From a virus: a stretch of DNA of 46,955 bases. Shown here piece by piece: positions 6,274-23,379 of the stretch. How positions within the stretch are numbered: position 1 is the stretch's first letter; every line of letters starts with the position of its first letter. The notes below the pieces were generated by a model, which was not told the origin of the DNA, did not search any database, and was given only the letters and a program-made list of their open reading frames with translations. The position numbers and the translations under genes are program-made. The stretch lies in IMG/VR virus record IMGVR_UViG_3300021178_000019, positions 1-46,955 of that record; one strand, given 5' to 3'.

Positions 6274-6302
6274 AGTATCGGATATCCGAGACTGTCGGTC
6301 AA
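6274..6302 (-). promoter_or_regulatory. Leftward promoter with Cro-type operator
   Basis: Minus strand TTGACC (6297-6302), 17-bp spacer, GATACT (6274-6279). Operator core CCGAGACTGTCGG at 6286-6298 and a second near-palindrome overlapping the -10. Transcript would begin with the shared box CACTGAAACGAAC (6256-6268). Confidence 0.8.
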
Positions 6303-6313
6303 GCGAGACTTTG

Positions 6314-6760
6314 CTATCTCCTTTTAAACGGCGTGGTCATTGTCTTTTCAACACTCCAACCACGAGCCATTCGACTCTCTAGGCAACCAGGCACGCAACC
6401 CAACTCCTTCTCCCATTGCCGAAGCGCCTGGGAACGCCCCATCCATTCGATGGGTTTTCTGGCCTTGGTTTTGAACGGTGCGCGATTCAGAACCTGTTCC
6501 GAGGCGGTGGCCCATCGGCAATTGCCTGGCTCGTAGTTGCCCCTCCCGTCTGGGAATCTGTCGATGGACGTTCCGGCCGGGCGAGGCCCCATGTCAGCCA
6601 GGAAATTCGCGAAGCTGTCCCATCGCGTGCATACGCGAATGCCGGCATCGTGATAGGCGGCGCGAATCTTTCCCTTGGAAGTCGGCCCGCAGCGATGCCT
6701 CATCGCGATCCAGGAGTTATAGGCGCCCGCAACCTCGGGGCTCAGATGATTCATCGGCAT
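6314..6760 (-). CDS. Phage HNH-like endonuclease (homing type), second copy
   Basis: 148 residues from ATG 6760, overlapping the upstream stop. Shares W-x-AMRHRC, AGIRVCTRW, FANFLADMGPRP, GNYEPGNCRWATASEQ and a C-terminal HTH-like region with the gene at 3261-3800, but ends normally at FKRR. Sits between the HNH gene at 6760-7203 and an operator-promoter. Likely selfish or recombination-stimulating; activity inferred from family. Confidence 0.75.
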   Translation of the reverse strand: MPMNHLSPEVAGAYNSWIAMRHRCGPTSKGKIRAAYHDAGIRVCTRWDSFANFLADMGPRPAGTSIDRFPDGRGNYEPGNCRWATASEQVLNRAPFKTKARKPIEWMGRSQALRQWEKELGCVPGCLESRMARGWSVEKTMTTPFKRR

Positions 6761-7203
6761 CAAAATTCCAATTCTTCTTCGGGCTCATAGAAATCCACGG
6801 ATGGGCGCGCGAGCGATCGCTGATAGTCCCGCTCCTTTCCGTTTCGGATGTTCTCCGATTGCGTACAGGGAATTAGGTGACTCGGTCGCCGGCATGATGG
6901 CTCATGACAAACGTGGTCGAGCTGCAGCCCGCTCGAACGAAATTCAATGTACGCTAAGTATAGATCATCCCGCTCCATCGGCCCCAGATGATCGAGGAGC
7001 CACGCCAGGATATGCGCGGAAAGCCGCTTCTGGCGGCCATCCAGCCCGCGAATCCGCAAGTCCAGGCGTCGATAGCCGTACCGGCATGCATAGCCGTCCT
7101 GGCCCATCCAGCAAGGCCCCAGCTTCTCGTCTCGGCCATACCATTGATCCGCCTCGATGGTTCCGGCCTTCAACGTCTCCGCAGTGATCGGCGCCGGCTT
7201 CAT
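6760..7203 (-). CDS. HNH endonuclease, small zinc type
   Basis: 147 residues from ATG 7203 (ATGA overlap with the gene before). The C-terminal half carries the HNH motif: LDH at 95-97, Cys at 99 and 104, PSHL near 107-110, and SENIRNG at 116-122, typical of the HNH_3-like phage nucleases. The N-terminal part (W-x-GYRRLDLRI) is likely its DNA-contacting region. Translationally coupled to a second HNH-like gene downstream. Confidence 0.8.
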   Translation of the reverse strand: MKPAPITAETLKAGTIEADQWYGRDEKLGPCWMGQDGYACRYGYRRLDLRIRGLDGRQKRLSAHILAWLLDHLGPMERDDLYLAYIEFRSSGLQLDHVCHEPSCRRPSHLIPCTQSENIRNGKERDYQRSLARPSVDFYEPEEELEF

Positions 7204-8465
7204 TCCGGATTGTTCCGATCCGATAGGGTGCCATTCCAAAATTCATCCACTGCAGCCCCTGAAGCAGCCTTCAGGGTGGCGATGCCGTGGTGTCGTTCGG
7301 CGAATCGGACGCCGGCCTCGAACCAATCGAACGGGTCTTCGGACTCGTAGCAAGGCCGGCTCAGCTCGTCGATCACCTCATCGGCGGTCAGCGGCTCCCT
7401 CGGCTCGACGGTCGCTGTAGGTGCAGCGGCGGCATCGATGTGCAGTCCTGGCGGCAGGAAGCCCAGCGCTGTCGTCAGACGCTGCGCAAGGTCTCGGGGG
7501 ATGCCGTGGCTCGCCTCCTCTCCCTTCGCGGGCACTGGAGGGGTGGACTCATGGTCGTCGAACGCCAGAAAATCTCGGTACGTTTTCGACTCCTCGCCCG
7601 CACGCGGCGGGTAGAGTGGCGTCGAATACTGCGCAGCGACGATCTTGCCCGGTTCCCCTTGGTGGTTGCGGGCATTCTCCATTTGGGCAGCCGAGAGAAC
7701 TCGCCCTTCACCGTCAGCCCAGGCCATCGGCTCCTCGCCCGCACGCGGTGCCACAGGAGCGGCGCGGACAACGGCATTGAACGCTTCGAGTGGTACGAGG
7801 GCGAATCCGCTGGGTGACTCACCGACGTTCGTCTCGTAGGCCATGTTCGCGATGGCGGCGGCGATGGCGCGCACGCCGGCCGCCACACCCTTGTGGTGGT
7901 TGCCGGGGCGCTCGCAAACAATGGCGGCGTCTTCCAGCGTTGCAGCATTGGGCGCCATCGGCTCTCCCACTGCCCGGGTTGCCACAGGAGTGCGAGACTG
8001 CTGATCGGCGACGAGCGCGGCCAATCCCTCTTCAACGCTGAGCTGCGATGCGAAGTCGTGTACGCCAACTGCCTGGGGTGCCGTGGAGGTGGGCGTCGAA
8101 AGCCACACGTCACGAATCACGAAACGATCTTTGAGGGTGGCTGGATCGGGCTCTGTTCCAGGGCCGTAGAACATCACGGGCTCTAGGCCGTCTTCGTCTT
8201 GTCGAAAAAGCACCTTTGCCACCGGCTCTCCCGGCACCGCATCGACAGGAGGCCGAGCAGCGAGAGAGTCGGCATTGGCGATGTCCCATTCGGTGATGCG
8301 ATTCCGAACGTCGGCAATCTCGGCGATCACCTTGGCGCGGTTGTCGTAAGGTGGAACGCCAGGGCCAAAGCGTTGCAGCTTGGTCAACGCCTGGATCAGC
8401 TCGGCGCATTCCTCGATAAGGTTCGTGGCAGGGTCGCCGATGTGGGCGAAGTCGGGATGGGTCAT
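7200..8465 (-). CDS. MazG-like domain fused to repetitive phage protein
   Basis: 421 residues. Residues 13-60 look like an all-alpha NTP pyrophosphohydrolase core: NLIEECAELIQALTK gives the EExxE motif and EIADVRNRI gives the ExxD motif that bind metal. The remainder has repeats of the type EEPMAWADGEG...YSTPLYPPRAGEE, found in Ea22/ead-like phage early proteins, and a C-terminal helical segment. Starts by ATGA overlap with the PP-loop gene. May hydrolyse abnormal or signalling nucleotides; only the motif supports this. Confidence 0.6.
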   Translation of the reverse strand: MTHPDFAHIGDPATNLIEECAELIQALTKLQRFGPGVPPYDNRAKVIAEIADVRNRITEWDIANADSLAARPPVDAVPGEPVAKVLFRQDEDGLEPVMFYGPGTEPDPATLKDRFVIRDVWLSTPTSTAPQAVGVHDFASQLSVEEGLAALVADQQSRTPVATRAVGEPMAPNAATLEDAAIVCERPGNHHKGVAAGVRAIAAAIANMAYETNVGESPSGFALVPLEAFNAVVRAAPVAPRAGEEPMAWADGEGRVLSAAQMENARNHQGEPGKIVAAQYSTPLYPPRAGEESKTYRDFLAFDDHESTPPVPAKGEEASHGIPRDLAQRLTTALGFLPPGLHIDAAAAPTATVEPREPLTADEVIDELSRPCYESEDPFDWFEAGVRFAERHHGIATLKAASGAAVDEFWNGTLSDRNNPE

Positions 8466-9271
8466 AGCGAGCATTCGTCGCACGCCGCAGCGCGCTCCTG
8501 TTCTTGGTGAATCTTCACGACCTTGCGTGCATCGGCCCACCAGCGCTGGGGCGAGACTTGCTCGGTCGCGGGGACGCCAGCGGCTTTCATCGTGGCGAAC
8601 TTCTCTTCCATGTCCTCCAGGAACACGGGGCCGCTTTCGTCGTGGTGGATGGCGTAGCCGATCGTCTCTTCAGCCCACTTGGCCTTGAGCCAAATGTCCG
8701 GCCTGGTGCAGTACACAATGTACCAGTGCTGCCAGCCAGCCTTGAGGCAGCCGACGCAGTTGCCGTGCTTGAACACTGCGTAGGTGTTGGGGCGGCGAAT
8801 GCCGATGTCCTCGGTGGCGAAGATCGTGCGCTGGCCCCAGAGCGCGACAGGGAAGTCCGTGCGGTAGCCCTGCGCGGCCATGATGCTGCTGCGCCGCTGG
8901 ATACGCTTCGTCTCATGGGGATCGAAGCCGTAGTAGAGGATGCACTCGCCCTGACTGGGCAACCACTTCATGAACGGCCCCGTCTTCAGCCGGTTTGTGC
9001 ACAACTCCGTACCGTTACCCACCTTGAACGCACCGGCCTCGACGCAGACATCAAACTGGTCGAACTCCGCGTTGTGGTGGTTGACGTAGGTCACCGGCAC
9101 GCCCAGGTAATCGGACACCTCCTGCTTGAAGCGCTTGATGTCCGCACCCTCGACGCTGAAATGGATGTCGTGGTTGACCAGGATGCAGTTCTCGGCCCCG
9201 AAACGACGCACGCCCTCGATGGCTGCGACGGCCGATGTGTGGCCGCCGCTGTAGCAGAAGATATGCTTCAC
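8462..9271 (-). CDS. PP-loop protein, PAPS reductase-like
   Basis: 269 residues from GTG 9271 (GTGA overlap, SD AGGGG). The adenylating PP-loop SGGHTS is at residues 8-13. TELCTNRLKTGPF, YYGFDPHE and GNCVGCLKAGWQHW add conserved Cys pairs seen in a phage subfamily of adenine nucleotide alpha hydrolases. Such enzymes activate a carbonyl or sulfate with ATP; in phages possible roles are DNA or tRNA modification. No dnd or queuosine partner genes are visible, so the substrate is unknown. Confidence 0.75.
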   Translation of the reverse strand: MKHIFCYSGGHTSAVAAIEGVRRFGAENCILVNHDIHFSVEGADIKRFKQEVSDYLGVPVTYVNHHNAEFDQFDVCVEAGAFKVGNGTELCTNRLKTGPFMKWLPSQGECILYYGFDPHETKRIQRRSSIMAAQGYRTDFPVALWGQRTIFATEDIGIRRPNTYAVFKHGNCVGCLKAGWQHWYIVYCTRPDIWLKAKWAEETIGYAIHHDESGPVFLEDMEEKFATMKAAGVPATEQVSPQRWWADARKVVKIHQEQERAAACDECSL

Positions 9272-9918
9272 GGCATCCACCCCTCGCCAGGGGTCTGCGC
9301 GGAGAGGGCGGCTTGCCAGACTTCCCAACTGTCACGCCAATGGGTGTCGGCGTATTCGCCTTCGAGGGGCGATCCGGGGCTGCACATACGTGGAGTCTCG
9401 CCGTAGCCTTTCCCAGACATCCACGTCTCGAAAGCCTCGCGCTCGCCCCGGCTCTGCTCCGCTCCCACAGCAGCCCTCGCCTGGGTTGCAGCCTCGCAGG
9501 CTTTCCAGCCCTCGACGTACTTCAGGCTCGCCTCGTGCGAATCGCGGCAAGACATCGGAATGTCCAGCCTCGCCTGGGTTGCGGCAGCGAGGCGGCCACG
9601 CGCTTGCCAGCCGCACCACGCGTTGTTCACGGCGCTGTTGCAGTAGTGCATGTTCTCGCCTCGGCCGAACGTGCTCAGGTCGCCGCAGTCCTTGCGGATG
9701 TACGCCTCAAATTGCTCCCGCTCGCTCGCCACGTCAGGGCTCGCAGCACTACGGGCGCGGTCTTGGATGATGGCGGCGCGGGCGTAGTCCTGCATTTCTT
9801 CGTCCGTGTAGTTGAGCGAATTGCCGCGAAAGTCGGTCGTTTGATCGCCGCATTGCGCGGATTCAGGCAGCTCAGGCAAGCTGATCGGCTCGCCCTGCGG
9901 GGTGGTGGTGTCAGACAT
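9268..9918 (-). CDS. Unknown early protein with duplicated Trp motif
   Basis: 216 residues; SD GGAGG six bases before ATG. Two similar segments are visible: EREQFEAYI...NNAWCGWQAR (about 66-108) and EREAFETWM...WRDSWEVWQAAL (about 158-207), a pattern common in accessory early proteins of temperate-type phages. No catalytic motif. Coupled to the genes on both sides. Confidence 0.6.
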   Translation of the reverse strand: MSDTTTPQGEPISLPELPESAQCGDQTTDFRGNSLNYTDEEMQDYARAAIIQDRARSAASPDVASEREQFEAYIRKDCGDLSTFGRGENMHYCNSAVNNAWCGWQARGRLAAATQARLDIPMSCRDSHEASLKYVEGWKACEAATQARAAVGAEQSRGEREAFETWMSGKGYGETPRMCSPGSPLEGEYADTHWRDSWEVWQAALSAQTPGEGWMP

Positions 9919-10144
9919 GGTTGGCCTCCGTCATGTCGTTCTTGCGTTGAAGCAGCCAAAGGTCGCGCTCACTGCGAATCTCGGCCATGATTTCGCTGTA
10001 GGACTTCGGTTCGCCGCGCACGTTCTTGTTGAACGGGTTGAGCGTCTGCATGAACTTGCGCGTCTCTTGGCGCGACTTGCCATCAGCGTCCTTCCAGCGG
10101 AAAACGCCTTTGACCGAGACTTCTTGGAAAACGTAGCGTGTCAT
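9911..10144 (-). CDS. Unknown small early protein
   Basis: 77 residues; SD AAGGAAG before the ATG. Basic N-terminal half (VSVKGVFRWKDADGKSRQETRKFMQTLNPF broken by no gaps) suggests a nucleic-acid-facing beta fold, but no family is recognised. Overlaps both neighbours by a few bases, part of one transcript. Confidence 0.55.
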   Translation of the reverse strand: MTRYVFQEVSVKGVFRWKDADGKSRQETRKFMQTLNPFNKNVRGEPKSYSEIMAEIRSERDLWLLQRKNDMTEANHV

Positions 10145-10413
10145 GTCGCTTCCTTGGTATTGATCGCAGCCCTCAGAGCTTCGATTGCTCGGACTGCGGG
10201 TTTTCGGGACTCACTGCCGCCGTGCTGATAGTGGTCGAGGACTTCGAGGGCGACCCCGGCCGCTGTCCTCAACGCATCCAGCTCGTCCAGCAGTGATCTA
10301 TCAGCCAGCGCCTCATCGATCAATCGAAGTGCATCATGTCGCTCTTGATAGGTGGGGGATCGCGCCAGGAGATCGCGCGCGGCCGTCAATGCTTTGCGGG
10401 TTCTGTCGGTCAT
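10141..10413 (-). CDS. Unknown small helical early protein
   Basis: 90 residues, nearly all alpha-helical (RKALTAARDLLAR, HDALRLIDEALAD, AVRAIEALRAAI). ATG overlaps the upstream stop and its own stop overlaps the next start. No motif. Confidence 0.55.
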   Translation of the reverse strand: MTDRTRKALTAARDLLARSPTYQERHDALRLIDEALADRSLLDELDALRTAAGVALEVLDHYQHGGSESRKPAVRAIEALRAAINTKEAT

Positions 10414-10700
10414 TTCGTGTCACTCGATGGTGTGAGCGAGTCGATCAAGTGTTGAACGCCTCGGCCCTGCAGTTTTGTATTTCGGACGATCCACAAGCCC
10501 GTGCCAGGCCAGAAATCGACAGTTCGGCCAAGCGCTCGAACGACAAGGTGTGCGCCAAAATTCTTCGTCTCGAACTTGAGGCCGGCGGCGAGCAGCATGG
10601 CGGCGTTGTCGATGCGATTGTTTGCGCGTTTCTGCTGGTGAGCTGCGCGCACGTCGCGCCAGAAGTCGCTCATATCGTCATCGTCGCCCTGGTCAGTCAC
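10410..10700 (-). CDS. Conserved-type phage early protein
   Basis: 96 residues from GTG 10700, chosen because GGAG lies 8 bases upstream and the GTG overlaps the preceding stop (GTGA); an internal ATG at 10673 lacks an SD. The core (NRIDNAAMLLAAGLKFETKN, GAHLVV, VDFWPGTGLW, RGVQHLI) is a pattern I know from small phage proteins of unknown function. Confidence 0.6.
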   Translation of the reverse strand: MTDQGDDDDMSDFWRDVRAAHQQKRANNRIDNAAMLLAAGLKFETKNFGAHLVVRALGRTVDFWPGTGLWIVRNTKLQGRGVQHLIDSLTPSSDTK

Positions 10701-10849
10701 TGAATCGTCTCCGGCGCCAGAGCTTCCTCGACAGCCTCGGGACTGATGCACAACTCACGAGCGACAGCCGCCACGGCGGCCTCGTGCGTCGGGTAGAGCG
10801 TCATGGCAGTGTCATAGGCGGCCTTCACGGCGTAGCGGGGATAAATCAT
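10697..10849 (-). CDS. 50-residue early protein, first gene after operator
   Basis: 50 residues (MIYPRYAVKAAYDTAM, THEAAVAAVARELCISPEAV), helical. The first gene after the operator-promoter at 10880-10908, with a leader whose last 17 bases match that of the Rad52-like gene. No recognised family; composition and tight overlap with the next gene support it as real. Confidence 0.6.
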   Translation of the reverse strand: MIYPRYAVKAAYDTAMTLYPTHEAAVAAVARELCISPEAVEEALAPETIQ

Positions 10850-10879
10850 GTCGTGTCCAGGTTGTGGGTCGGAAACCCG

Positions 10880-10908
10880 ATACTATCGGGCTTCCGATGT
10901 TTGTGCAA
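10880..10908 (-). promoter_or_regulatory. Leftward promoter with variant operator
   Basis: Minus strand TTGCAC (10903-10908), 17 bp, TAGTAT (10880-10885). The 15-bp palindrome CCCGATACTATCGGG (10876-10890) overlaps the -10 instead of the spacer, so repression geometry differs from the other sites. It lies at the very 3' end of the preceding gene. Confidence 0.65.
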
Positions 10909-11545
10909 GCGGGTGAATAGCGGATCCGGCCGTGAGTCCGACAATCATGGCCGTATCGCGGCGCGCCTTCTTCTGTTGCCAGTACCTGGCGTTCCGTTGC
11001 TTATCAGTCTCCAGCGGCGGGCGCTTTGCGTCACGAATGTCGCCCAGCATGTAAACGCGAGTCCGTGGCCCGAACTCAGGTTTCTCCCACTCGCTCACGT
11101 GGATCAGGCGCAGCTTCCGCATGTGCTTGACTAGGTTGTTTGCAGCCCCGTAGGTGAGGCCGCAAAGCTCGCAAACAGCCCGTACCGTCGCGCCCGATTC
11201 CAGGGCCTTCACCACCTGGCAGAACGTGAACAGCTCGGGCTTAAATTCGGGCTTGCGCGACTCGCGCACAAGGGGCCGCCCCGCCGCCGTCGTCGTCGGC
11301 CTGGGCGCGCTCGGGCCGCCTCCCATTTTCCAGCGCGCGGAGACGTGCTTTCCGGGCTCGCGGCGATGCCAGTCGTGGACGTGAGCGATTCCATGGATCG
11401 TCATCCGAACCATGATTCGGGCGGCCTCGAACTCGGTGACGCCGAGGTGACGGTGAATGTCCCAGGCCGAGGAGGGATAGACCCGGATCGCGGCCAGGAT
11501 CTCCGCGTACCCCTGCATTCCGCGAGCGGCATAGCGCTCGGCCAT
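10883..11545 (-). CDS. Putative DNA-binding protein with two winged helices
   Basis: 220 residues. Two helix-turn-helix stretches are visible: SSAWDIHRHLGVTEFEAARIM (about 25-46, interrupted by a normal turn) and ATVRAVCELCGLTYGAANNLV (about 116-136), each followed by a wing-like strand. A basic tail follows (RYWQQKKARRD). Could be an early regulator or replication accessory factor; target unknown. Confidence 0.5.
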   Translation of the reverse strand: MAERYAARGMQGYAEILAAIRVYPSSAWDIHRHLGVTEFEAARIMVRMTIHGIAHVHDWHRREPGKHVSARWKMGGGPSAPRPTTTAAGRPLVRESRKPEFKPELFTFCQVVKALESGATVRAVCELCGLTYGAANNLVKHMRKLRLIHVSEWEKPEFGPRTRVYMLGDIRDAKRPPLETDKQRNARYWQQKKARRDTAMIVGLTAGSAIHPLAQTSEAR

Positions 11546-11547
11546 CT

Positions 11548-11853
11548 TCAGCTCTCCAGGGCCGGCAGCGGCTCGGCCTGGTATTTCTTGAAGATCGCCA
11601 GGCTGATCGCCGCGCTGGTCAGAGATCCGGCCGTCTCGGGCGCGACGAACGTGGCGTACTGTTCCGGGCTGACCTCGGGGTAATGGTAGACCGGGGCCAG
11701 GAGGCCCGGCTTCGGCTTGAATTGAACGGCAAGCGTCCGGGTGATGGGGTCATAGCCCTGGGCGGCCACGCGCTCGGATTTGATGACCTGGAGAGCGATG
11801 GGAGGGCGGGGCGTCGTCTCGAACGCCTGGGCCTGAACGAAGGGGCGGGGCAT
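11548..11853 (-). CDS. KTSC-like domain protein
   Basis: 101 residues. Residues 23-80 match the KTSC pattern: S-x-R-V-x2-x-GYD, LAVQFKPKPG, YHYPEVSPEQYATFV. Related domains occur in phage and bacterial proteins of unknown role, sometimes next to RNA-binding proteins. The signature Lys-Thr-Ser-Cys itself is not intact here. Starts 15 bases after the previous stop. Confidence 0.6.
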   Translation of the reverse strand: MPRPFVQAQAFETTPRPPIALQVIKSERVAAQGYDPITRTLAVQFKPKPGLLAPVYHYPEVSPEQYATFVAPETAGSLTSAAISLAIFKKYQAEPLPALES

Positions 11854-11868
11854 GATGGCTCCTGAAGT

Positions 11869-12135
11869 TTAGAAGGGGTGTCCGTCGTCGCCATCGACGC
11901 GCGGGAGCATCGGGGCGGCCTCGACGGATGGGCGCGGCTCGCGCACACGAGGCGGGGCCGGCGGAACCTCGGGATCGGTAGTGAACGTCACCACCAGGCC
12001 AGCCGGATAGGTCTTCGTCGTGATCTTCGTGATTCGCGCGTCGTCGTCACCGAACAAGGCGGGCGCCTGGGCCTTCAGAAGTTCGCGAATCGCGTTCTCC
12101 GTCAGGGTGATTTCATTGTCACCGGGGAATTTCAT
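11869..12135 (-). CDS. Unknown protein downstream of exonuclease
   Basis: 88 residues (MKFPGDNEITLTENAIRELL...), a short alpha-beta start and a Pro-rich acidic tail ending DGDDGHPF. The acidic tail resembles SSB-type protein-interaction tails in a general way, though no OB fold can be read. Separated from the exonuclease gene by a 40-base gap with a GC-rich hairpin. Confidence 0.5.
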   Translation of the reverse strand: MKFPGDNEITLTENAIRELLKAQAPALFGDDDARITKITTKTYPAGLVVTFTTDPEVPPAPPRVREPRPSVEAAPMLPRVDGDDGHPF

Positions 12136-12153
12136 GATGGACTCTCGGGAAAC

Positions 12154-12170
12154 GGCGCCGGCCGGGCGCC
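12154..12170. other. GC-rich hairpin between exonuclease and next gene
   Basis: GGCGCC (12154-12159), 5-base loop, GGCGCC (12165-12170). No T-tract on either strand, so it is more likely an RNA processing, stability or attenuation element than a full terminator. Confidence 0.4.
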
Positions 12171-12175
12171 ACGGT

Positions 12176-14113
12176 TTAGAACGGGATGGGGCACGCCTGC
12201 TGGACGTGCTTGACGAGGGCGGCCTGGATCAGCTTGAAGTCCGATTCCGTCCAGAACTTCGCGGCCTTCTCGGTGCGGCGGAACGGGACGCCCAGCGTCT
12301 CCGTCACGAACTCGGCATCCAGTCGGAACCCGAACGCCTCGGCCATCTTGCCCAGGTTGATCCAGGCCCGCTCCTCCTGGGCCGTTGTTTCCGGCGTCAG
12401 GGTCTGTAGGGTGGCGGGCCTGCCGGCGCCAGGAAAGCCGGGAACGGCCAGCGGATCGCGCCTCGGAGACTCGAACGCTTCCAGGCTGGAGGAAACGATG
12501 GACTCGGCGACAGCGGACGCCACCGGGGCGCCGGCCTGGCCCAGCTCGCGAAGATCCTCCTCCGCGTGCTGGCGCTCGGCCTTCGACGCCTCGTCCTGGC
12601 GGCGGCGATCTTCGGCGGCCTGGATCTCGGCGGCCTGTTCACGTTCGGCGGCCTCGGCGCGCGCCTGGGCGGCGGCCTCCTCGTCGCGCTCGGCCTGGGC
12701 CGCGCGCTCCTGGCGCAGGATCTCGGCGGCCTGCTCACGCGCGGCGGCCTCGGCCTTTTCCTTCTCCTCGGCCGCGATCCTGGCGCGCGTGGCGTTCTCC
12801 TCGGCGGCCTTCGCCTCGCGATGATCGTGAATCCGCGTTCGGATGATCAGCGCCACCGTCTCGGCGTCCTTCTGGATCAGCGAGGCCGCGTCATTGAACA
12901 GAAACGCAAAGTCGGGTTCCGCCTCGATCAGGGCGCGACGGGCCTTCATCGCGCCCGCCGTCGTCGTCGCAATGATCTTGACGCGGGCCAGTTCCGTATT
13001 CACGGCCGATTGCATGGAGTCGAAAGAGCTTTTCCTGGCCGTCTGTCCGGCGAAGTCGGCGGGTATCGTGGGCAGGCTGTAGGGGGCCAGGCTGGCATTC
13101 AGCTCGGCGACGTGAGAATGGAACTCGGCCACGGCATCGCCGACAATCTCGGACTTGCGTTCGGCCTTGCGCTTGTCCACCAGCTTTTTCAGCTCCAGGC
13201 GACAGGTACGGGCCTCGGCCTGTACGTCATCCAGCGCCTTCAGCGCGTCGGCGATGCTGGTCGTTTGGGACAGGGTGTACTCGCGCGCCGTGTCGCAGTT
13301 GCTCTCCACCGTCTCGCACCACTTCAGCATATTCGCGGCGGTCGCGAAGTCCTGATCCGACGAAAGCTCGCGGTTCACGCTTCGAATAGCCTTCAGAGCC
13401 GTCTCCTTCCACGGCCCCAGGTTCGTTTCCGTCACGCGGCCCTCGACCACGACGAACAACGCCGGAAGGCTCTCCATGGTCTTCCCCACGGCCTTCGGCG
13501 CGGCCGGTGCCTTCGGGACGTAGTTCGCGAGATCGATGCGGAATTGCGCCCAGCCGGCGGCGATCTCCTCGCGCAATGCGAGATCCGGGAAGCACCAGGC
13601 GTGCCTTGCGTCCAGGAGCTGATCACCGTTCCACTTCGACGCAGTGAACAGCGTTTCCTGTGCGTCAGTGACCATAAATTGGTGTTCGATCTGGACACGG
13701 TGGTACTTCGGAAGATCCGCGCCCGCATTGAACTCGGACGGCATCACGGCCAGAAGCTCGGCGTTCAGTCGCTTGTGTTCCCAGGACTTCCGGCCGTCGA
13801 AGGACAGGCCGTCGAGCGAGGCGGAAAGCGTGCCGTAACTCATGGTGACGGGAAACAGGCTTTCGCCCATGATCTCCTCGGCCAGCTCGCGCGCCAGGGC
13901 CTCAAATGCGTGGCCTGGATCCAGGACGATCTCCTGGACGTACTGGCTGAAGTCGCGGCCCATGCCCAGGTAATACTCGGCCAGAAGCTCGTCGCGAGTC
14001 TTGTGCGGGCTGCAACCCAGCATCGCGGCGGCATCGCTCGCGTTTTCATGCTGGTATCGGTGGGCGTACCACTCGGGCGATTTCTGGACGATGTTGTGTG
14101 TGATGCGTTCCAT
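12176..14113 (-). CDS. YqaJ/lambda-type exonuclease with long coiled-coil extension
   Basis: 645 residues; typical YqaJ-type nucleases are about 200-350. Residues 10-170 carry the PD-(D/E)XK fold: E71 in GHAFEALAR, D101 in ASLDG, E112-x-K114 in WEHKR, and Q141/Q145 in RVQIEHQ. It should degrade one strand of double-stranded DNA ends for recombination. A middle region with many helices follows, then a strong Ala/Glu/Arg coiled coil at about 430-525 and a small C-terminal domain (600-645). Works with the Rad52-like annealing protein encoded just upstream. Has its own operator-promoter. Confidence 0.8.
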   Translation of the reverse strand: MERITHNIVQKSPEWYAHRYQHENASDAAAMLGCSPHKTRDELLAEYYLGMGRDFSQYVQEIVLDPGHAFEALARELAEEIMGESLFPVTMSYGTLSASLDGLSFDGRKSWEHKRLNAELLAVMPSEFNAGADLPKYHRVQIEHQFMVTDAQETLFTASKWNGDQLLDARHAWCFPDLALREEIAAGWAQFRIDLANYVPKAPAAPKAVGKTMESLPALFVVVEGRVTETNLGPWKETALKAIRSVNRELSSDQDFATAANMLKWCETVESNCDTAREYTLSQTTSIADALKALDDVQAEARTCRLELKKLVDKRKAERKSEIVGDAVAEFHSHVAELNASLAPYSLPTIPADFAGQTARKSSFDSMQSAVNTELARVKIIATTTAGAMKARRALIEAEPDFAFLFNDAASLIQKDAETVALIIRTRIHDHREAKAAEENATRARIAAEEKEKAEAAAREQAAEILRQERAAQAERDEEAAAQARAEAAEREQAAEIQAAEDRRRQDEASKAERQHAEEDLRELGQAGAPVASAVAESIVSSSLEAFESPRRDPLAVPGFPGAGRPATLQTLTPETTAQEERAWINLGKMAEAFGFRLDAEFVTETLGVPFRRTEKAAKFWTESDFKLIQAALVKHVQQACPIPF

Positions 14114-14138: not shown

Positions 14139-14167
14139 AGTATCGCCTGTCCGAGACTATCGGACAA
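14139..14167 (-). promoter_or_regulatory. Leftward promoter with operator, before exonuclease
   Basis: Minus strand TTGTCC (14162-14167), 17 bp, GATACT (14139-14144); operator core CCGAGACTATCGG at 14151-14163. Directs the exonuclease gene starting at 14113. Confidence 0.75.
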
Positions 14168-14176
14168 GCGATATCT

Positions 14177-14960: not shown

Positions 14961-14989
14961 AGTGTCGCAGATCCGAGACTATCGGACAA
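14961..14989 (-). promoter_or_regulatory. Leftward promoter with operator, before Rad52-like gene
   Basis: Minus strand TTGTCC (14984-14989), 17 bp, GACACT (14961-14966); core CCGAGACTATCGG at 14973-14985. The leader ends in AACCTGGACACGAC, identical to the leader before 10849. Confidence 0.75.
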
Positions 14990-14996
14990 GCGATAT

Positions 14997-15857: not shown

Positions 15858-15863
15858 TCAAAA

Positions 15864-16277: not shown

Positions 16278-16306
16278 AGTATCGGATATCCGAGACTATC
16301 GGGCAA
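16278..16306 (-). promoter_or_regulatory. Leftward promoter with operator
   Basis: Minus strand TTGCCC (16301-16306), 17 bp, GATACT (16278-16283); core CCGAGACTATCGG at 16290-16302; transcript starts with box CACTGAAGCAAAC (16260-16272). Confidence 0.8.
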
Positions 16307-16338
16307 GCGATATTTGCGACTGTTACACCTTCAGTCGA

Positions 16339-16711: not shown

Positions 16712-16740
16712 AGTATCGGATATCCGATACTGTCGGTCAA
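16712..16740 (-). promoter_or_regulatory. Main leftward promoter with perfect 20-bp palindrome
   Basis: Minus strand TTGACC (16735-16740), 17 bp, GATACT (16712-16717). AGTATCGGATATCCGATACT at 16712-16731 is a perfect palindrome over the -10, next to core CCGATACTGTCGG (16724-16736). Transcript starts with box CACTGAAGCGAAC (16694-16706). Confidence 0.85.
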
Positions 16741-16763
16741 GCGATTTATGAAAGGAAATTCGC

Positions 16764-16792
16764 TTGACCGATACTGTCGGAGCGCCGATACT
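16764..16792 (+). promoter_or_regulatory. Rightward promoter with operator for cro-like gene
   Basis: TTGACC (16764-16769), 17 bp, GATACT (16787-16792); core CCGATACTGTCGG at 16768-16780. Expected start about 16799, which is the A of the cro-like ATG, so the mRNA should be leaderless. Confidence 0.85.
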
Positions 16793-16798
16793 CGGAGC

Positions 16799-17050
16799 AT
16801 GACCAAAGACGAAGCCCTATCCCACTACTTGACCACGCGAGCCCTCGCGCGGGCGCTGGACATGCGGGAGAACACGGTGAGCGAGTGGAAAGTGATTCCG
16901 CACGTTCACCAGCTCCGGCTCGAATCGATCACGGGCGGAACGCTCCGCGCGGATGATGAAGCCTGGCACCCCGCGAGCCCACGCTACTCCGTGGAGTGCT
17001 ACTCGACCACCGGCCGCCGCAAACCCTACATGGCGGCGGCCAAACCATGA
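16799..17050 (+). CDS. Cro-like repressor
   Basis: 83 residues. The N-terminal 55 residues match the P22 Cro-like HTH family: MTKDEALSHYLTTRALARAL, DMRENTVSEWKVIPHVHQLRLE, ITGGTLRADDE. It should bind the palindromic sites of the divergent control region and shut down early transcription. I chose ATG 16799 because the upstream in-frame extension runs through the promoter. The predicted transcript starts at the ATG; the GGAG directly before it is too close to act as SD. No CI-type partner is visible. Confidence 0.8.
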   Translation: MTKDEALSHYLTTRALARALDMRENTVSEWKVIPHVHQLRLESITGGTLRADDEAWHPASPRYSVECYSTTGRRKPYMAAAKP

Positions 17051-17064
17051 AAGGAGGGACTGAA

Positions 17065-17274: not shown

Positions 17275-17501
17275 GCGCCGAGCGCCCGAGCCTGGAGGCA
17301 CAGGCCGCCCGCTGGCACGAGCTGAACACCTCGGGCCATGCCCACTACCTTCGTCGCCAGGTGGATAACCTGGTTTCGACGGCTCGACAGCTCGGGCTCC
17401 GAATCGAAGTCACTCAAGCGAGTCACGCCTGCAGCATGGGCGCGACTCACGAGATCGTCACCGTCACGCCCTCGCGTGAAGGCTATCAATCCACCACCTG
17501 A
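17271..17501 (+). CDS. Unknown small early protein
   Basis: 76 residues, ATG overlapping the stop before it. Helical N-terminus and a strand-rich C-terminus (GLRIEVTQASHAC, HEIVTVTPSR), a layout like the gene upstream (LVLEVHNVAD...VVVVRP). The two may be distant duplicates. No known family. Confidence 0.5.
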   Translation: MSAERPSLEAQAARWHELNTSGHAHYLRRQVDNLVSTARQLGLRIEVTQASHACSMGATHEIVTVTPSREGYQSTT

Positions 17502-17510
17502 AAGAACCAC

Positions 17511-18398
17511 ATGGGACGCTCGTCCAAAGAAGTCTACGGGGCTGACGGCTCCACGAACCTCCTGAGCTTCGCGCCGGAGAAGCTGAAGATCATCACCGAC
17601 AAGTCGCATCCGCTCTACGACGAGCGCCACGCGCTTCCCGTCGATGACGCGACCGTTCGGAACATGATGGCCTTCGGCGTGCTGGAGCCCATCATTGTCA
17701 CGCTCGACACCGAATCCGGCGAGGTTCTGGTGGTCGATGGCCGCCAGCGCGTGAAGAACGCGGCCGAGGCGAACCGCCGCCTCCATGCCGAGGGTCGCCC
17801 CACGCTCCTCGTTCCCGCGACGACGCGCAAGGGCGACAACGCGGCCACGCTGTTCGGCGTCATGGTGGCGACGAACGAGCTTCGCCAGTCCGACCCGCCG
17901 CTGATCCGCGCCGCCAAGATGCAGCGCCTGAAGAACCTGGGCCAGGACGACGACGCCGTGGCCCTGGCGTTCGGCGTGAACAAGCTGACGGTGAAGAACA
18001 CCCTGGCCCTGCTGGACTGCGGAAAGACCGTCCAGAAGGCCGTGGAGGCGGGCTATATCGGCATCACGGACTCGCTCTACCTGTCGCGCCTCACGCCGAG
18101 CCAGCAGACCGCCAAGGTGGAGGAGATCATCCGCGCGACCGCGGGCAAGACCGGCCACGCCAAGGCGAAGGCGAAGCGCGAGGTGGTCAAGGGCAAGAGC
18201 GAAGCCCCGAAGATGAAGACGCGCGCTCAAGTTCTCGCGCGCTACGCCGACTTCCGAAAAGAGCAGTGGGATCAAGCCTTCGGCGATGGATTCGGCGCAG
18301 CTCTGGAGTGGGTGCTGGGCGGCGCCCCGGCCGAGCCCGAGAAGGATACGAAGACTCGCGATCTCGTGGACGAGCTGGCCCAGGCGCCCGCCGGCTGA
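17511..18398 (+). CDS. ParB-like protein
   Basis: 295 residues. Residues 40-110 show the ParB/sulfiredoxin-type N-terminal fold: PVDDATVRNMMAFGVLEPI, VLVVDGRQRVKNAAEANRRL, and residues 150-185 a helix-turn-helix (DAVALAFGVNKLTVKNTLAL). Known family members bind DNA and CTP or act as regulators/nucleases. No ParA ATPase or clear parS cluster is present, so plasmid-type partition is unlikely to be the role. Basic linker (KAKAKREVVKGKS) near 205-220. Followed by a strong terminator. Confidence 0.75.
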   Translation: MGRSSKEVYGADGSTNLLSFAPEKLKIITDKSHPLYDERHALPVDDATVRNMMAFGVLEPIIVTLDTESGEVLVVDGRQRVKNAAEANRRLHAEGRPTLLVPATTRKGDNAATLFGVMVATNELRQSDPPLIRAAKMQRLKNLGQDDDAVALAFGVNKLTVKNTLALLDCGKTVQKAVEAGYIGITDSLYLSRLTPSQQTAKVEEIIRATAGKTGHAKAKAKREVVKGKSEAPKMKTRAQVLARYADFRKEQWDQAFGDGFGAALEWVLGGAPAEPEKDTKTRDLVDELAQAPAG

Positions 18399-18430
18399 TC
18401 AGTTTCCTCCCTCCCGGCCTCGGCCGGTTT

Positions 18431-18466
18431 GCCCGCACTCGCCCCAAGCGTCTGCGGGCTCTTTTC
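18431..18466 (+). terminator. Intrinsic terminator after ParB-like gene
   Basis: GCCCGCA (18431-18437) pairs with TGCGGGC (18453-18459), followed by TCTTTTC. Ends the immediate-early rightward unit; genes from 18661 need readthrough or another promoter. Confidence 0.75.
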
Positions 18467-18578
18467 GTGTGCGCTACCGCACCTTATGTGGGGTAACGCA
18501 CGGAAATTCGATCTAGAAAAAATTGCGATATAGCAGGTGACGTTCCCGAATTGTCGTGCGAAACTAGGTGCGCGCGGC

Positions 18579-18616
18579 AAGGGGGGCACCCCTGACCGGG
18601 GTTCATCGCCCGGTCA
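18579..18616 (+). other. Nested inverted repeats before HNH gene
   Basis: AGGGG-ggca-CCCCT type hairpin (18579-18592) is followed at once by TGACCGGG (18593-18600), 8-base loop, CCCGGTCA (18609-18616). The 262-base gap before the HNH gene also holds an AT-rich patch at 18505-18535 but no convincing promoter. May be an operator or RNA structure controlling the downstream unit. Confidence 0.5.
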
Positions 18617-18660
18617 CGCCGTCGCACCCAAACGATGACCTGCCGATGGAGGTGCCCACT

Positions 18661-19197
18661 GTGGCGACAAAGCGCAAAGCGCTCAGCAAGAAAACCCGCT
18701 TCGACGTGTTCAAGCGGGACAAGTTCACTTGCCAATATTGCGGAGCTGTTCCGCCTACTGTCCTGCTCCACGTCGATCATGTTCATCCGGTAGTCGAGGG
18801 CGGCGAGAACGACCAGGACAACCTCGTGACGGCCTGCGAGCCATGCAACCTTGGGAAGGGTGGCCGGCTGCTTTCCAGCGTCCCGCAAAGCCTTTCCAGC
18901 AAGGCTCGCGAGACGGTGGAACGAGAGGCGCAGCTTCTTGGCTATCAGGCCATCCTGAATGCGAAGCGAGAGAGGATCGAGGACGAGACATGGCGCGTCA
19001 TCCAAACCCTATGGCCGGGAAAAGACAACGTGTCTTCGGCCGATTTCAAGTCCGTGAGGGTGTTCGTCGAACGCCTGGGACTCTATCCCGTCATGGAAGC
19101 GGCCGATATCGCGCGTGCGTCCCGCGCACCGTCATACAGGCTGTTCCGGTACTTCTGTGGCGTGTGCTGGAGCAAGATTCGAGAGGCGAACGAGTAA
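18661..19197 (+). CDS. HNH endonuclease
   Basis: 178 residues from GTG 18661; GGAGG eight bases upstream decides the start. Classic HNH/McrA core: C24-x2-C27 (FTCQYCG), HVDHVHP with D39-H40, N54 (QDNLVTAC), C59-x2-C62, NLGKGG. A helical C-terminal half follows. Such phage nucleases cut host DNA, aid packaging, or home. Position at the head of the replication block argues for a host-degrading or homing role. Confidence 0.85.
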   Translation: MATKRKALSKKTRFDVFKRDKFTCQYCGAVPPTVLLHVDHVHPVVEGGENDQDNLVTACEPCNLGKGGRLLSSVPQSLSSKARETVEREAQLLGYQAILNAKRERIEDETWRVIQTLWPGKDNVSSADFKSVRVFVERLGLYPVMEAADIARASRAPSYRLFRYFCGVCWSKIREANE

Positions 19198-20021
19198 TGG
19201 CCCGCATCAGGACGATCAAGCCGGAGTTTCCGCAGTCCGAAAGCATGGGTCGCGTGAGTCGCGATGCACGCTTGTGTTTTATTCAATTGTGGACGCTCGC
19301 CGACGATGAGGGGAGGCTTCGAGGAAATTCGCGAATGCTCGCGAGCCTTCTTTTCCCATACGACGACGACGCTCCGGCGCTGATCGACGGATGGCTTTCT
19401 GAACTGGAGGCGCAGGCATCGATTCGGCGCTATCAGATCGAGGGAACGAGCTATGTTCAAGTCACCGAATGGACGAAACATCAGAAGATCGACAAGCCTT
19501 CTCCCTCGAAGATCCCCCCGATTCCGGTTGATTTCGAGCCTGTGGTCAAGCCTCCATTCGATGAGGCCTCGATAATCCTCGCGAAGGCTCGCGAAGCGTC
19601 GTCGGAGGATCAAGGATCTGGATCAAGGATCAAGGATCTGGATCAAGGAAAGGATCAGGGATCGAAGAAGGCCACGCCTGCGCCGTGGCTCACCGTCGAT
19701 GACTTGATCGCTTCCGGCCTCACGTCGGAAACGGCCCAGGGCTTCATCGATCACCGTCGAGCGAAGAAGGCGAAGCTCACGGCGCTTGCGTGGAAGGGCT
19801 TCGTCGCGGAGGTCGAGAAGGCGACGGGCTGGACGCTGGAAGCCGCCGCGCTCAAGGCCATTGCACGCAACTGGATTTCCGTCGAGGCCGCCTGGCTCCT
19901 GGGCTCGGGCAGCACCAGCAGCGGCGCCGGCCACATGAATCGCCAGAAGGCCGTCGAGGACAGCAATCGCGCAGTCGGCCGCGCCTGGGCATCGAAGGGG
20001 GCCGATCATGCAGGCCAGTGA
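19197..20021 (+). CDS. Phage replication initiator-like protein (O-like)
   Basis: 274 residues, TAATG overlap with HNH gene. N-terminal 110 residues (MARIRTIKPEFPQSES, ARLCFIQLWTLADDEGRLRG, LLFPYDDDA, YVQVTEWTKHQKIDKPSPS) are the winged-helix start common to phage replication/DnaT-like proteins. A Gln/Asp/Lys linker at about 137-158 is encoded by tandem GGATC repeats. The C-terminus (WLTVDDLIASGLT, LEAAALKAIARNW) is a helical domain of the type that contacts the helicase or loader. Works with the P-like gene next. Confidence 0.75.
   Translation: MARIRTIKPEFPQSESMGRVSRDARLCFIQLWTLADDEGRLRGNSRMLASLLFPYDDDAPALIDGWLSELEAQASIRRYQIEGTSYVQVTEWTKHQKIDKPSPSKIPPIPVDFEPVVKPPFDEASIILAKAREASSEDQGSGSRIKDLDQGKDQGSKKATPAPWLTVDDLIASGLTSETAQGFIDHRRAKKAKLTALAWKGFVAEVEKATGWTLEAAALKAIARNWISVEAAWLLGSGSTSSGAGHMNRQKAVEDSNRAVGRAWASKGADHAGQ
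19607..19646 (+). repeat. Two perfect 20-bp direct repeats in O-like gene, possible origin
   Basis: GGATCAAGGATCTGGATCAA occurs twice back to back (19607-19626, 19627-19646), followed by a degenerate partial copy to about 19663; eight GATC sites fall in about 58 bases. Just upstream CTCGCGAAG is repeated twice (19579-19597). Lambda carries its origin iterons inside gene O, so an origin here is a reasonable inference. Confidence 0.5.
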
Positions 20022-20565
20022 AAAAGCCGAGTTCGCCGAACTCATGACCCAGGCCCTGGCCTTCTGGCGAAAGGATGTCACCGACTTCACGCTGTCGGTG
20101 TGGTGGACGGCCTGCCAGCCCTTCAGCCTCGAACAGGTGAACAAGGCGCTGCAGGCCCACGCGATGCACCCGGAGCGGAGCAGCTTCGCGCCGATGCCTG
20201 GCGACTTCGTGCGCGAGCTACAGGGCACGCACACGGATCGGGCACTCCTGGCCTGGGGTCGCGTCACGCGCGCCATGTCGGAGGTCGGGGCGTATGCGAC
20301 GGTGGATTTCGGGGATCCCGTCATCCACGCCACCGTTCGCGAGCTTGGCGGCTGGGCGGCGATCTGCCGCGCACCGAACGACGAACAGCAGTTCCTCCAG
20401 AAACGGTTCTGCGACTTCTTCCGCACCTACACAACTCGCGGCGTGGCCGAGGCGCCGCTGGCGCTTCAGGGCGATCACGACACCGTAAACGCCTCTGTCT
20501 CGCTGGAGTCGCCCGACCAGGTGCGCCGCCTGGCTGAGCCCGCGCCCGTCCGCCGGATCCAGTGA
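20008..20565 (+). CDS. Helicase-loader-like replication protein (P-like)
   Basis: 185 residues, overlapping the O-like gene by 14 bases. N-terminal helices (FAELMTQALAFWRKDVTDFTLSVWW split by no gap, then FSLEQVNKALQAHAMHPERSSFAPMPGDF) and a C-terminal segment (DPVIHATVRELGGWAAICRA, FLQKRFCDFFRTY) match the DUF6475 type of phage proteins found after replication initiators. The proposed role is recruiting host DnaB; no catalytic motif expected. Confidence 0.65.
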   Translation: MQASEKAEFAELMTQALAFWRKDVTDFTLSVWWTACQPFSLEQVNKALQAHAMHPERSSFAPMPGDFVRELQGTHTDRALLAWGRVTRAMSEVGAYATVDFGDPVIHATVRELGGWAAICRAPNDEQQFLQKRFCDFFRTYTTRGVAEAPLALQGDHDTVNASVSLESPDQVRRLAEPAPVRRIQ

Positions 20566-20567
20566 CC

Positions 20568-20783
20568 ATGCCGCGCCGCACGAAAGCCGACCGCGAGCGC
20601 GCCGAGCGCTGCCGTCATCCCGGGTGTGAGGCGCGATGGATCACGACATTCAGCCCCATCGGCCCAACGTGCTTCAAGCATAAGCCGCAGCCCAACCCGC
20701 ATCAGACCCAGCAAGTACCCACCGCGCCCGCGGCGAAGCCGTGGAGCGAACCCGACAAGGATTCCGATGCCGAAGAAATTTGA
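20568..20783 (+). CDS. Small basic protein with Cys/His
   Basis: 71 residues (MPRRTKADRERAERC...). C-x4-C and C-x-H pairs (CRHPGCEARW, PTCFKHKPQ) suggest a small zinc-binding fold; the rest is Pro/Gln-rich. GTG 20562 overlapping the stop before is an equally good start. Unknown function. Confidence 0.5.
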   Translation: MPRRTKADRERAERCRHPGCEARWITTFSPIGPTCFKHKPQPNPHQTQQVPTAPAAKPWSEPDKDSDAEEI

Positions 20784-21054
20784 CCCCAGCAATCAAGCGC
20801 GCCGAGACACCGTCGCCGAGATCATCGCCGCGCTCATGTGGGAACCGAAGACCGTTGACCAAATCGTGGAAATAACGGGCTGCGCGGTGTCTTCCGCTCG
20901 TGGCTGGATCAATGCCTTCCATGATTCCGGCTTGGTGCGGATTTCTGCTCGATTGCCACGCGAGAAGTTCGAGGGGGCGCAACAGTATGGCCGTCGTCGG
21001 ATTCTCTGGGCTTGGCAGGCGAAGCCATTCGATCAGGAGGACGCTGCATCATGA
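20767..21054 (+). CDS. Winged-helix DNA-binding protein
   Basis: 95 residues. A clear helix-turn-helix (KTVDQIVEITGCAVSSARGWI) with a wing (GLVRISARLPREK, GRRRILWAW). Overlaps the genes on both sides. Likely a small transcriptional or replication accessory regulator of the middle genes. Confidence 0.6.
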   Translation: MPKKFDPSNQARRDTVAEIIAALMWEPKTVDQIVEITGCAVSSARGWINAFHDSGLVRISARLPREKFEGAQQYGRRRILWAWQAKPFDQEDAAS

Positions 21055-21320
21055 AGAATGGTTCACCAACGAAGGTAGTTTTGCTGAACGGCCAAGTGAC
21101 GGATACATGGTCGAACGAATGGCGTGATGAGTGCGTGGCTAGGAAACCGCTCGTGGACAAGGTCTTGAGCATGCTCGGCAAACACAACCGAACGGCCCGA
21201 GACGCCTACTACCAGTGGATTGGTGCCATGTACGGCCCCGAGCAGGAAAAGCGCGTGCGCGAGGCTGTCTCGCGCGTGTGGAAGCTGGAAGGCGACCGCA
21301 TCAAGGAAACCACGAAATGA
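21051..21320 (+). CDS. Unknown middle-gene protein
   Basis: 89 residues from ATG 21051 (ATGA overlap; AGGAGG ten bases upstream). Helical, with WSNEWRDECVARKPLVDKVL and AYYQWIGAMYGPEQEKRVRE. No family recognised. Confidence 0.5.
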   Translation: MKNGSPTKVVLLNGQVTDTWSNEWRDECVARKPLVDKVLSMLGKHNRTARDAYYQWIGAMYGPEQEKRVREAVSRVWKLEGDRIKETTK

Positions 21321-21613
21321 CACCGCAGGAATTCGTTGAAACGCTCGATCCGCCCGAGACCCTGCGCCACGTGGCAATCGTCGCGAGCATGCCACTCTAT
21401 GCCGTGTCTCAGTGGATGGCGGCCGTTCGTCACCATGCGGGGATCAAGTTCGACAGCTACGCTTTTCGCATCAACCCGATGCGCCTACATGGCTTCATTG
21501 ATGGCGTGGCAGAGCCGCGTCTGGCGATCACATATCACGATCCGATGGAAGGACAGCGACCGGATAATGTTCCATCGGCGTCAGCCATCATCATCACGGA
21601 GATCCAGCTTTGA
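21317..21613 (+). CDS. Unknown middle-gene protein
   Basis: 98 residues, ATGA overlap. PQEFVETLDPPETLRHVAIVASMP then strands. No motif or family recognised. Tight overlaps on both sides indicate one translational unit. Confidence 0.5.
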   Translation: MTPQEFVETLDPPETLRHVAIVASMPLYAVSQWMAAVRHHAGIKFDSYAFRINPMRLHGFIDGVAEPRLAITYHDPMEGQRPDNVPSASAIIITEIQL

Positions 21614-22188
21614 TCGAAGAGACGCCTGTCGAGCGCAAGCGCCGAATCGAACGTGCGCGATATCACGCCAACAAAGAGGCGCGCAAAGCCCAAGTAGCTG
21701 CCTACAGGGCCGCGAACCCTGATAAATGCAAGGCCCTGCGTGAAAAGTGGCGTCACGAGAATCCTGAAAAGTGGGATGCGTTCCACAAGCAATATCGCGA
21801 TGAGAATCAGGAGAAGCATCGGATCTATTGCCGCGAATGGCGTCAGAAAAATAGAGAGCGCGCGGACGCGAAGATCGCCGAATGGCATGCGGCACATCCG
21901 GAGTGGAAGCGGATAAAGGTTCAGAATCGGCGCGCGCGAAAGATGGCGAGCGGCGGACGACTCTCCCGTGGTCTTGTCCCAAAGCTACTGGAGGCGCAGG
22001 GATGGCGCTGCATTGGCTGCGCATGCGATTTGCGGAAGAGTGGCTACCATCTAGATCACCAAATGCCCCTGGCTCGCGGAGGCGCGCACGCCGACGAGAA
22101 TATGCAAATGCTATGCCCCCATTGCAACTGCACCAAGGGCGCGCGAGATCCCGTTGAGTGGGAGCGGGAAATGGGCCTGAGGCCATGA
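21610..22188 (+). CDS. HNH endonuclease with N-terminal helical repeats
   Basis: 192 residues from TTG 21610, accepted because GGAG sits 8 bases upstream and TTGA overlaps the stop. Residues 15-100 repeat a charged helix about every 15-20 residues (YRAANPDKCKALREKW, YRDENQEKHRIYCREW, WHAAHPEWKRIK). Residues 130-175 are an HNH core: C134-x2-C137, LDHQMP with D149-H150, N164, C169-x2-C172, NCTKG. The repeats likely form a DNA-clamping helix array. Confidence 0.8.
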   Translation: MIEETPVERKRRIERARYHANKEARKAQVAAYRAANPDKCKALREKWRHENPEKWDAFHKQYRDENQEKHRIYCREWRQKNRERADAKIAEWHAAHPEWKRIKVQNRRARKMASGGRLSRGLVPKLLEAQGWRCIGCACDLRKSGYHLDHQMPLARGGAHADENMQMLCPHCNCTKGARDPVEWEREMGLRP

Positions 22189-22580
22189 AGAGATTCATTC
22201 TTGCGAATGCCCAAGTACGAAAGCGTGCTGCCGGTTATGTGTTCCGTGACGCGCTCGACGGACAGGTGGTCGAGATAAAAGACCCGACGCGCAACAGCGA
22301 GCAGAATGCGAAGTTTCATGCTTGCTGCAGCGATATCGCCAAGAGCGGATTGACCTGGATGGGAAAGAGGCGGACGGTGCTCCAGTGGAAGATCCTTCTG
22401 GTTTCAGGCCACGCCGTCGCGACGAAAGAGGAACATGACCTGGTGCCTGGGCTTGAAGGGGAGTTCGTCAACCTGCGTGAAAGCACGGCTCTCATGAGCG
22501 TAAAACGAAGTTCCAGCCTGATCGAATACACCGTATGCTTCATGGCGCAAAACGGCGTCGAATCTAGCGGGGGGGGGTGA
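22185..22580 (+). CDS. ninB: NinB (Orf) recombination protein
   Basis: 131 residues. Matches the NinB family: KRFILANAQVRKRAA, NSEQNAKFHACCSDIAKS, VLQWKILLVSGHAVAT, LVPGLEGEFVNLRESTA, EYTVCFMAQNGV. Lambda Orf binds single-stranded DNA/SSB and supports RecFOR-independent recombination. Fits with the exonuclease and Rad52-like protein of the leftward operon. Ends in a G-run. Confidence 0.9.
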   Translation: MKRFILANAQVRKRAAGYVFRDALDGQVVEIKDPTRNSEQNAKFHACCSDIAKSGLTWMGKRRTVLQWKILLVSGHAVATKEEHDLVPGLEGEFVNLRESTALMSVKRSSSLIEYTVCFMAQNGVESSGGG

Positions 22581-22583
22581 CGA

Positions 22584-23045
22584 ATGACGTGGAAACGCCC
22601 TCCTGCGCGGCCGGCAAAGCAGATTGACGGCGACATAGCACCTCGCCCCACGGCGCGCTCCATCGGCCTGGCCGCGGCGCTCGCCGTCGTGATGCCGGCC
22701 GCGGCGCCCGCGCGTATTCCGAAGTCGCCGCACTCGGTCGACGCGATGGGCCGCAAGATCCGCGAAAGCGCGCGCGGCGAGGACTGTGACATCCGAATCC
22801 CAGGTGGCTGCAATTTCGACAACGCCACCACCGTCTGGTCGCACTTCCCCGGCCTGGCCGGAGGTCGAGGGATGGGCCTCAAGAGCTTTGATCCGTGCGG
22901 CGTCTATGCGTGCTCATCGTGCCATGACATCGTGGATGATCGCGCGCCAGCGCCGGACGGAATGACGCGACAGGACGTAATGCTGTGCTGGCATGAAGGG
23001 CACCTCCGTTCGCTGATCAAGCTGCATCATAAGGGCCTGATTTAG
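22584..23045 (+). CDS. DUF1364-type putative nuclease
   Basis: 153 residues. Residues 58-150 follow the DUF1364 pattern: GRKIRESARGEDCDIRIPG-C, TVWSHFPG, GRGMGLKSFD, YACSSCHDIVDDR, WHEGHLRSLIKL. Conserved Cys/His suggest a treble-clef HNH-related fold often next to NinB. A G-rich run at 22569-22578 supplies its SD. N-terminal 50 residues are Ala/Pro-rich. Confidence 0.75.
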   Translation: MTWKRPPARPAKQIDGDIAPRPTARSIGLAAALAVVMPAAAPARIPKSPHSVDAMGRKIRESARGEDCDIRIPGGCNFDNATTVWSHFPGLAGGRGMGLKSFDPCGVYACSSCHDIVDDRAPAPDGMTRQDVMLCWHEGHLRSLIKLHHKGLI

Positions 23046-23078
23046 GCCACAATCCACCCTTCACAGGAGATCCAATCC

Positions 23079-23336
23079 ATGAAGTACGTTTTCAACATCC
23101 GCGCGGCCACAAAGGACGAAGCGAAGGCCGCCATCGCGGCGGAGTTCGATGAGATCACGTCCACGTCAGCGCCGGCCGACTGGAGCGTGCCCCAGGCCGC
23201 GGCGGATGCGCTGATCGACGCGCTGGAGGATGTCGCGAGCCTGGAGATCGTCGCCACCGTTTCGGGCGAAGTCATGTTCATCGGAGACGCCACACACCAC
23301 GTCACGTTCGCCTTCTCGGCGATGCTGTCCGACTGA
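23079..23336 (+). CDS. Unknown small protein
   Basis: 85 residues; AGGAG nine bases upstream. Regular alternation of helix and strand (KYVFNIRAATKDEAKAAI, ASLEIVATVSGEV, HHVTFAFSAML). Last gene before the structured region. No family recognised. Confidence 0.55.
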   Translation: MKYVFNIRAATKDEAKAAIAAEFDEITSTSAPADWSVPQAAADALIDALEDVASLEIVATVSGEVMFIGDATHHVTFAFSAMLSD

Positions 23337-23350
23337 TCGTCAGATATCGC

Positions 23351-23379
23351 TTGACCGAGACTGTCGGAACACCGATACT
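23351..23379 (+). promoter_or_regulatory. Rightward promoter with operator before structured region
   Basis: TTGACC (23351-23356), 17 bp, GATACT (23374-23379); core CCGAGACTGTCGG at 23355-23367. Start expected near 23386. No long gene follows for about 600 bases. Confidence 0.8.

Follow-up and report, generated by a model that had tools for sequence, protein, structure and literature searches.

The 46,955-base virus contig analyzed here (the whole record, hereafter the window) was found to carry eight dispersed sites which are probably operators of the phage's own P22-type Cro, and this protein would repress a scattered early regulon by itself. The sequence CCGAKACTRTCGG occurs in eight exact copies in the whole record (starting at 6286, 10877, 14151, 14973, 16290, 16724, 16768, and 23355), the reversed-pattern control giving none, and 20 matches with at most two mismatches were seen compared with 5.2 expected. 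The initial annotation had reported a 13-bp operator core at these eight coordinates, six sites facing left and two facing right; both the positions and the orientations were reproduced, and scanning was extended to relatives, where the elements were also found. The eight 35-bp elements scored 31.7–57.7 with a 35-bp matrix, the best scores in shuffled sequences (five shuffles per genome) being 5–11; this margin is indicative only as the matrix was trained on the window sites, and independent support is provided by the relatives. The sites, the cro gene and two further genes of interest are as follows.

6274..6309, minus strand: composite promoter-operator with two 20-bp units, axes 17 bp apart (-35 TTGACC, -10 GATACT), ahead of a 41-aa gene (6236-6111)
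10866..10908, minus strand: composite promoter-operator in a second register, ahead of a conserved 50-aa gene (10849-10697)
10883-11545, minus strand: 220-aa protein with weak winged-helix/MarR-like matches
14139..14174, minus strand: composite promoter-operator ahead of a RecE-like gene (14113-12176); same position in relative G004 (8235)
14961..14996, minus strand: composite promoter-operator with -10 GACACT, ahead of a single-strand-annealing protein gene (14935-14177); same position in G004 (7408)
16278..16313, minus strand: composite promoter-operator ahead of a 125-aa gene (16241-15864)
16712..16747, minus strand: composite promoter-operator, left-facing half of the divergent control region, ahead of a 112-aa gene (16677-16339)
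16757..16792, plus strand: composite promoter-operator of cro, its -10 ending 6 nt before the cro ATG
16799..17050, plus strand: Cro-like putative repressor of 83 aa (PF14549, P22_Cro), nearest solved structure P22 Cro (1rzs)
17511-18398: ParB-like protein
23344..23379, plus strand: composite promoter-operator ahead of a gene-poor stretch of ~600 nt (23386-23985)

Leftward genes behind the sites encode the 112-aa and 125-aa proteins of unknown function, the single-strand-annealing protein, the RecE-like exonuclease, and the 50-aa and 41-aa proteins. Rightward, cro is followed by the ParB-like, HNH and replication genes, with the promoter at 23.4 kb in addition. Farther left, past the 50-aa gene, a gene at 8462-9271 (minus strand) matches phage phosphoadenosine phosphosulfate reductase families (phrog_424, E 1e-22).

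Each element of ~35 bp is made up of two abutting, even-centred palindromes of 18–20 bp, the axes of which lie exactly 17 bp apart. The unit has the consensus AGTMTCGG-NNNN-CCGATACT with a 4-bp centre, its 20-bp sequence being AGTATCGGATATCCGATACT. When aligned by promoter direction the eight elements read TATCGC-TTGN-CCGANAG/C-TNTCGG-ANNN-CCGATACT, that is, four copies of one half-site paired into two palindromes. Unit (a) lies around the -35 box with TTGN as its 4-bp centre, unit (b) lies between the -35 and -10 boxes and extends into the latter, and the 13-bp core is the junction of the two. The ATCGC described previously as preceding the core is present, though as the outer arm of this larger dyad. 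Units were then defined as half-sites with CGA and a 4-bp gap matching at 11 or more of 12 positions, and 15 of the 16 hits in the window and 13 of the 15 in G004 fell inside these promoters, paired at 17 bp wherever both units qualify; other gap lengths gave 0–5 hits in the window and G004. The element ahead of the RecE-like gene (14141-14173, minus strand) is a nearly perfect 33-base inverted repeat and was also picked up as terminator-like, with 14 pairs before CTGTAGTTTT, a call which is probably a by-product of operator symmetry.

All eight sites are palindromic and all lie on promoter-like sequences. A scan of 19.8 kb for the sigma-70 consensus identified four promoters, every one of them among these elements. 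The initial annotation's TTGNCC-17-GATACT-type promoter was recovered at seven of the eight sites (with GACACT at 14973), but the site at 10877 has neither box in the common register. Its promoter is read on the minus strand as TTGCAC (10908-10903)-17-TAGTAT (10885-10880), which puts unit (a) in the spacer, while unit (b) covers the -10 box and start. Equivalent promoters, TTGCGC-17-TAGTAT and TTGCAT-17-TATAGT, were found in two relatives, G004 (11623) and G001 (27947), ahead of the same 50-aa gene. From this second register it follows that a unit between the -35 and -10 boxes is the constant feature, present in every promoter, with the second unit on either side of it (over the -35 in seven promoters and over the start region at 10877).

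It is highly improbable that the elements chiefly represent a conserved type of promoter, recognized by a host sigma factor or host regulator, instead of operators for a phage repressor. One promoter architecture is indeed common to seven elements, promoter constraints account for part of the motif at -35 and -10, and the palindrome may in some measure be due to the promoter, since the -10 box forms part of a half-site. However, the dyad symmetry reaches beyond both hexamers, and a -10 box starting with G is unusual for sigma-70. The same dyad is also kept in the other register (10877 and its two equivalents) and with an offset -10 box at the cro promoter of the distant phage G005, which argues against an origin from promoter constraints alone.

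The operator reading was extended through four site-bearing phages (the window, G001, G004, and G005), all of whose records may be incomplete. Only two close relatives were found, G004 (34,988 b) and G001 (50,104 b), with Cro proteins 63–65% identical to that of the window; no close named phage or plasmid was identified by DNA for the window stretches searched. The only hit of a Cro search in bacterial genomes, L023, was rejected as a related locus, having no matching site and no P22_Cro match. A site is located at the cro promoter in all four phages. G004 has six double elements and one single unit left of cro, G001 has the double form at cro and mostly single units at its other sites, and three promoters (RecE, annealing-protein and 50-aa) are common to the window and G004 or G001. 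The more distant G005 (35.7 kb) yielded only two unit hits, both perfect (12/12) and both in promoters. One, AATATCGG-CGTT-GCGATATT, lies in its cro promoter; the other, AGTATCGG-TTGG-CCGATACT, is in a left-facing promoter close to the opposite end of the contig, which on a circular contig would put it ~600 bp from the first.

These partial sites bear on the nature of the binding unit, which the initial annotation had taken to be the 13-bp core. This core, CCGANANTNTCGG, is itself near-palindromic and exact at all eight window sites, and it could be proposed as an odd-centred Cro dimer site with the outer arms as a by-product of the promoter boxes. Such an arrangement is very unlikely. Five standard promoters of the relatives have kept unit (b) but no intact core (G004 6230; G001 24766, 18026, 33444, and 24047), the 10877-type promoter of G001 has likewise kept unit (a) with the core broken, and G005 has the unit without the core. 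Moreover, the outer upstream arm TATCGC falls outside any promoter box. The 13-bp core was accordingly rejected as the unit and is probably not what is bound, being the junction of two operators of P22 geometry.

The assignment of the sites to Cro is based on the 83-aa protein and the operators of its family. The protein matches PF14549 (P22_Cro) at 40.1 bits, above the curated cut-off of 30.2, and the solved P22 Cro (1rzs) with an E-value of 3.5e-10. A palindrome with a 4-bp gap was present in all 12 of the control regions examined upstream of P22_Cro genes (eight from named phages, P22-like phages included, and one from each of the four site-bearing contigs), with ~2 expected from shuffles. 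Gaps of 2 and 6, which are co-centred, track the gap of 4, and the odd gaps of 1, 3, and 5 are near background, which again speaks against an odd-centred site. The annotated phage-21 operators (e.g., ATTTAAG-TGTT-CTTTAAT) have the same 4-bp-centre layout as the window units. No simple one-to-one rule between PF14549 recognition helices and half-sites was apparent in the few cases seen. Its sequence and the geometry of the operators place the 83-aa protein in the P22_Cro family. In all four phages (the window, G001, G004, and G005) the -10 box is followed 6 nt later by the cro ATG, so that a leaderless mRNA is predicted, and cro is thus probably translated from such a transcript.

Another phage protein might be suggested to bind the sites, either the ParB-like protein (the sites then being centromere-like) or the 220-aa protein with its weak winged-helix matches. 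Both look DNA-binding and are conserved in the window, G001, and G004, and the 220-aa gene ends within the 10877 element. This is nevertheless unlikely, since G005 carries its two perfect promoter units with no tblastn match to either protein. Phage G003 (42.8 kb) has a ParB-like protein 62% identical to that of the window and no core at up to one mismatch, although it also lacks a P22_Cro match and its contig starts within parB, so that cro may be missing from the record. Among candidate regulators, P22_Cro alone was found in each of the four site-bearing phages. Homologs of the 220-aa protein in G001 and G004 are ~28% identical to it, and the protein is a possible second regulator.

No match to HTH_3 or Peptidase_S24, or to tyrosine (PF00589) or serine (PF00239) recombinases, was detected in the window, G001, or G004; in G005 an HTH_3 (CI-like) protein and an integrase (PF00589) are present. 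The early region of the window is contiguous with late genes on both flanks, which makes it unlikely that a CI is hidden in a gap of that region (the records are not certified complete). Neither a CI divergent from cro nor an integrase was thus found in the window, G001, or G004, and as far as these records show the system does not appear to be a lambdoid CI/Cro switch. It would instead resemble such a switch stripped of all but Cro and distributed across the early genome.

The initial annotation had proposed that one Cro-like protein controls scattered early units, and this is still the best reading, given the PF14549 match, the presence of cro and sites in four phages, and the site at cro in each; we infer Cro binding, double occupancy, repression and timing from the sequences. 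On entry, host sigma-70 polymerase would open all eight early promoters, giving transcripts of the recombination genes, of the small genes to the left and of the rightward cro-ParB-replication operon, as well as the 23.4-kb transcript. Translated probably from leaderless mRNA, Cro would then build up and occupy all sites, its own promoter included, turning the early programme down. Simultaneous occupancy of both units is uncertain, the 17-bp spacing being tighter than the 23–25 bp of the P22-like control region.

No clear gene lies behind the right-facing element at 23344-23379. The gene-poor ~600 nt that follow (23386-23985) contain a conserved element, CCTTCAAGTCTGGAACTCTAGACGG ... TCCAGACTTGA, with a long closing stem, which is also present in six stretches of IMG/VR contigs and which in G001 and contig L052 likewise comes after an operator-bearing promoter, in the same order. 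Rfam gave no family match in the window. The element is possibly structured, judging by the stem, though the stem is nearly invariant and covariation therefore supports a structure little.

There is perhaps an even chance that a fuller account holds, in which the lineage lost the CI/integrase half of a lambdoid system and its P22-type Cro became a global early repressor, acting through composite promoter-operators of 35 bp that each hold two abutting dimer sites, with a leaderless, autorepressed cro and one promoter driving a conserved, possibly structured non-coding RNA. Cro is usually one half of a lysis-lysogeny switch and acts on two or three control regions. A Cro seemingly alone on eight scattered promoters would offer a natural system for Cro function without CI, and its dispersed sites a way to ask how a repressor regulon comes to extend across a genome. 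From the sites one can also read the likely DNA specificity of a new P22-type Cro subfamily, together with a simple operator sequence. No direct precedent for dispersed Cro operators was found in the open literature, and one may exist elsewhere.

Among known systems, P22 and phage 21 share with the window a homologous Cro, even-centred operators of ~18 bp with a 4-bp centre, and a divergent control region from which cro is read to the right. They differ in the half-site (CTTAAAT as against CCGATACT in the window), in the placing of the operators in two control regions (OL/OR) and not at eight dispersed promoters, and in having three operators ~23–25 bp apart where the window has two units 17 bp apart. 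Unlike these phages, the window has no CI that could be found and its cro is predicted to be leaderless. Phage P1 C1 provides a case of one phage repressor serving many dispersed operators, with 22 of them over the genome, each an asymmetric 17-mer (PMC8546580). C1 is however a lysogeny repressor, whereas the putative regulator in the window is a Cro with symmetric, even-centred sites in a record with no lysogeny gene detected, and the window sites are not asymmetric 17-bp operators of the C1 type. Mycobacteriophages of the L5 type likewise have many repressor sites scattered over the genome, and the initial annotation had compared the window to the stoperator layouts of some mycobacteriophages. 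This comparison was not sustained, since each L5-type site is an asymmetric 13-mer to which a monomeric two-domain repressor binds; these sites follow the direction of transcription and some lie outside promoters (PMC9283540), while those of the window are symmetric and all on promoters. In the telomere phage PY54 the cro mRNA is leaderless as mapped by RACE, and its Cro, which has one operator only, is considered not to repress itself (PMC4488713). A leaderless cro would be common to both phages, being predicted from promoter position in the window, but unlike PY54 the window carries a site at every mapped early promoter, that of cro included.
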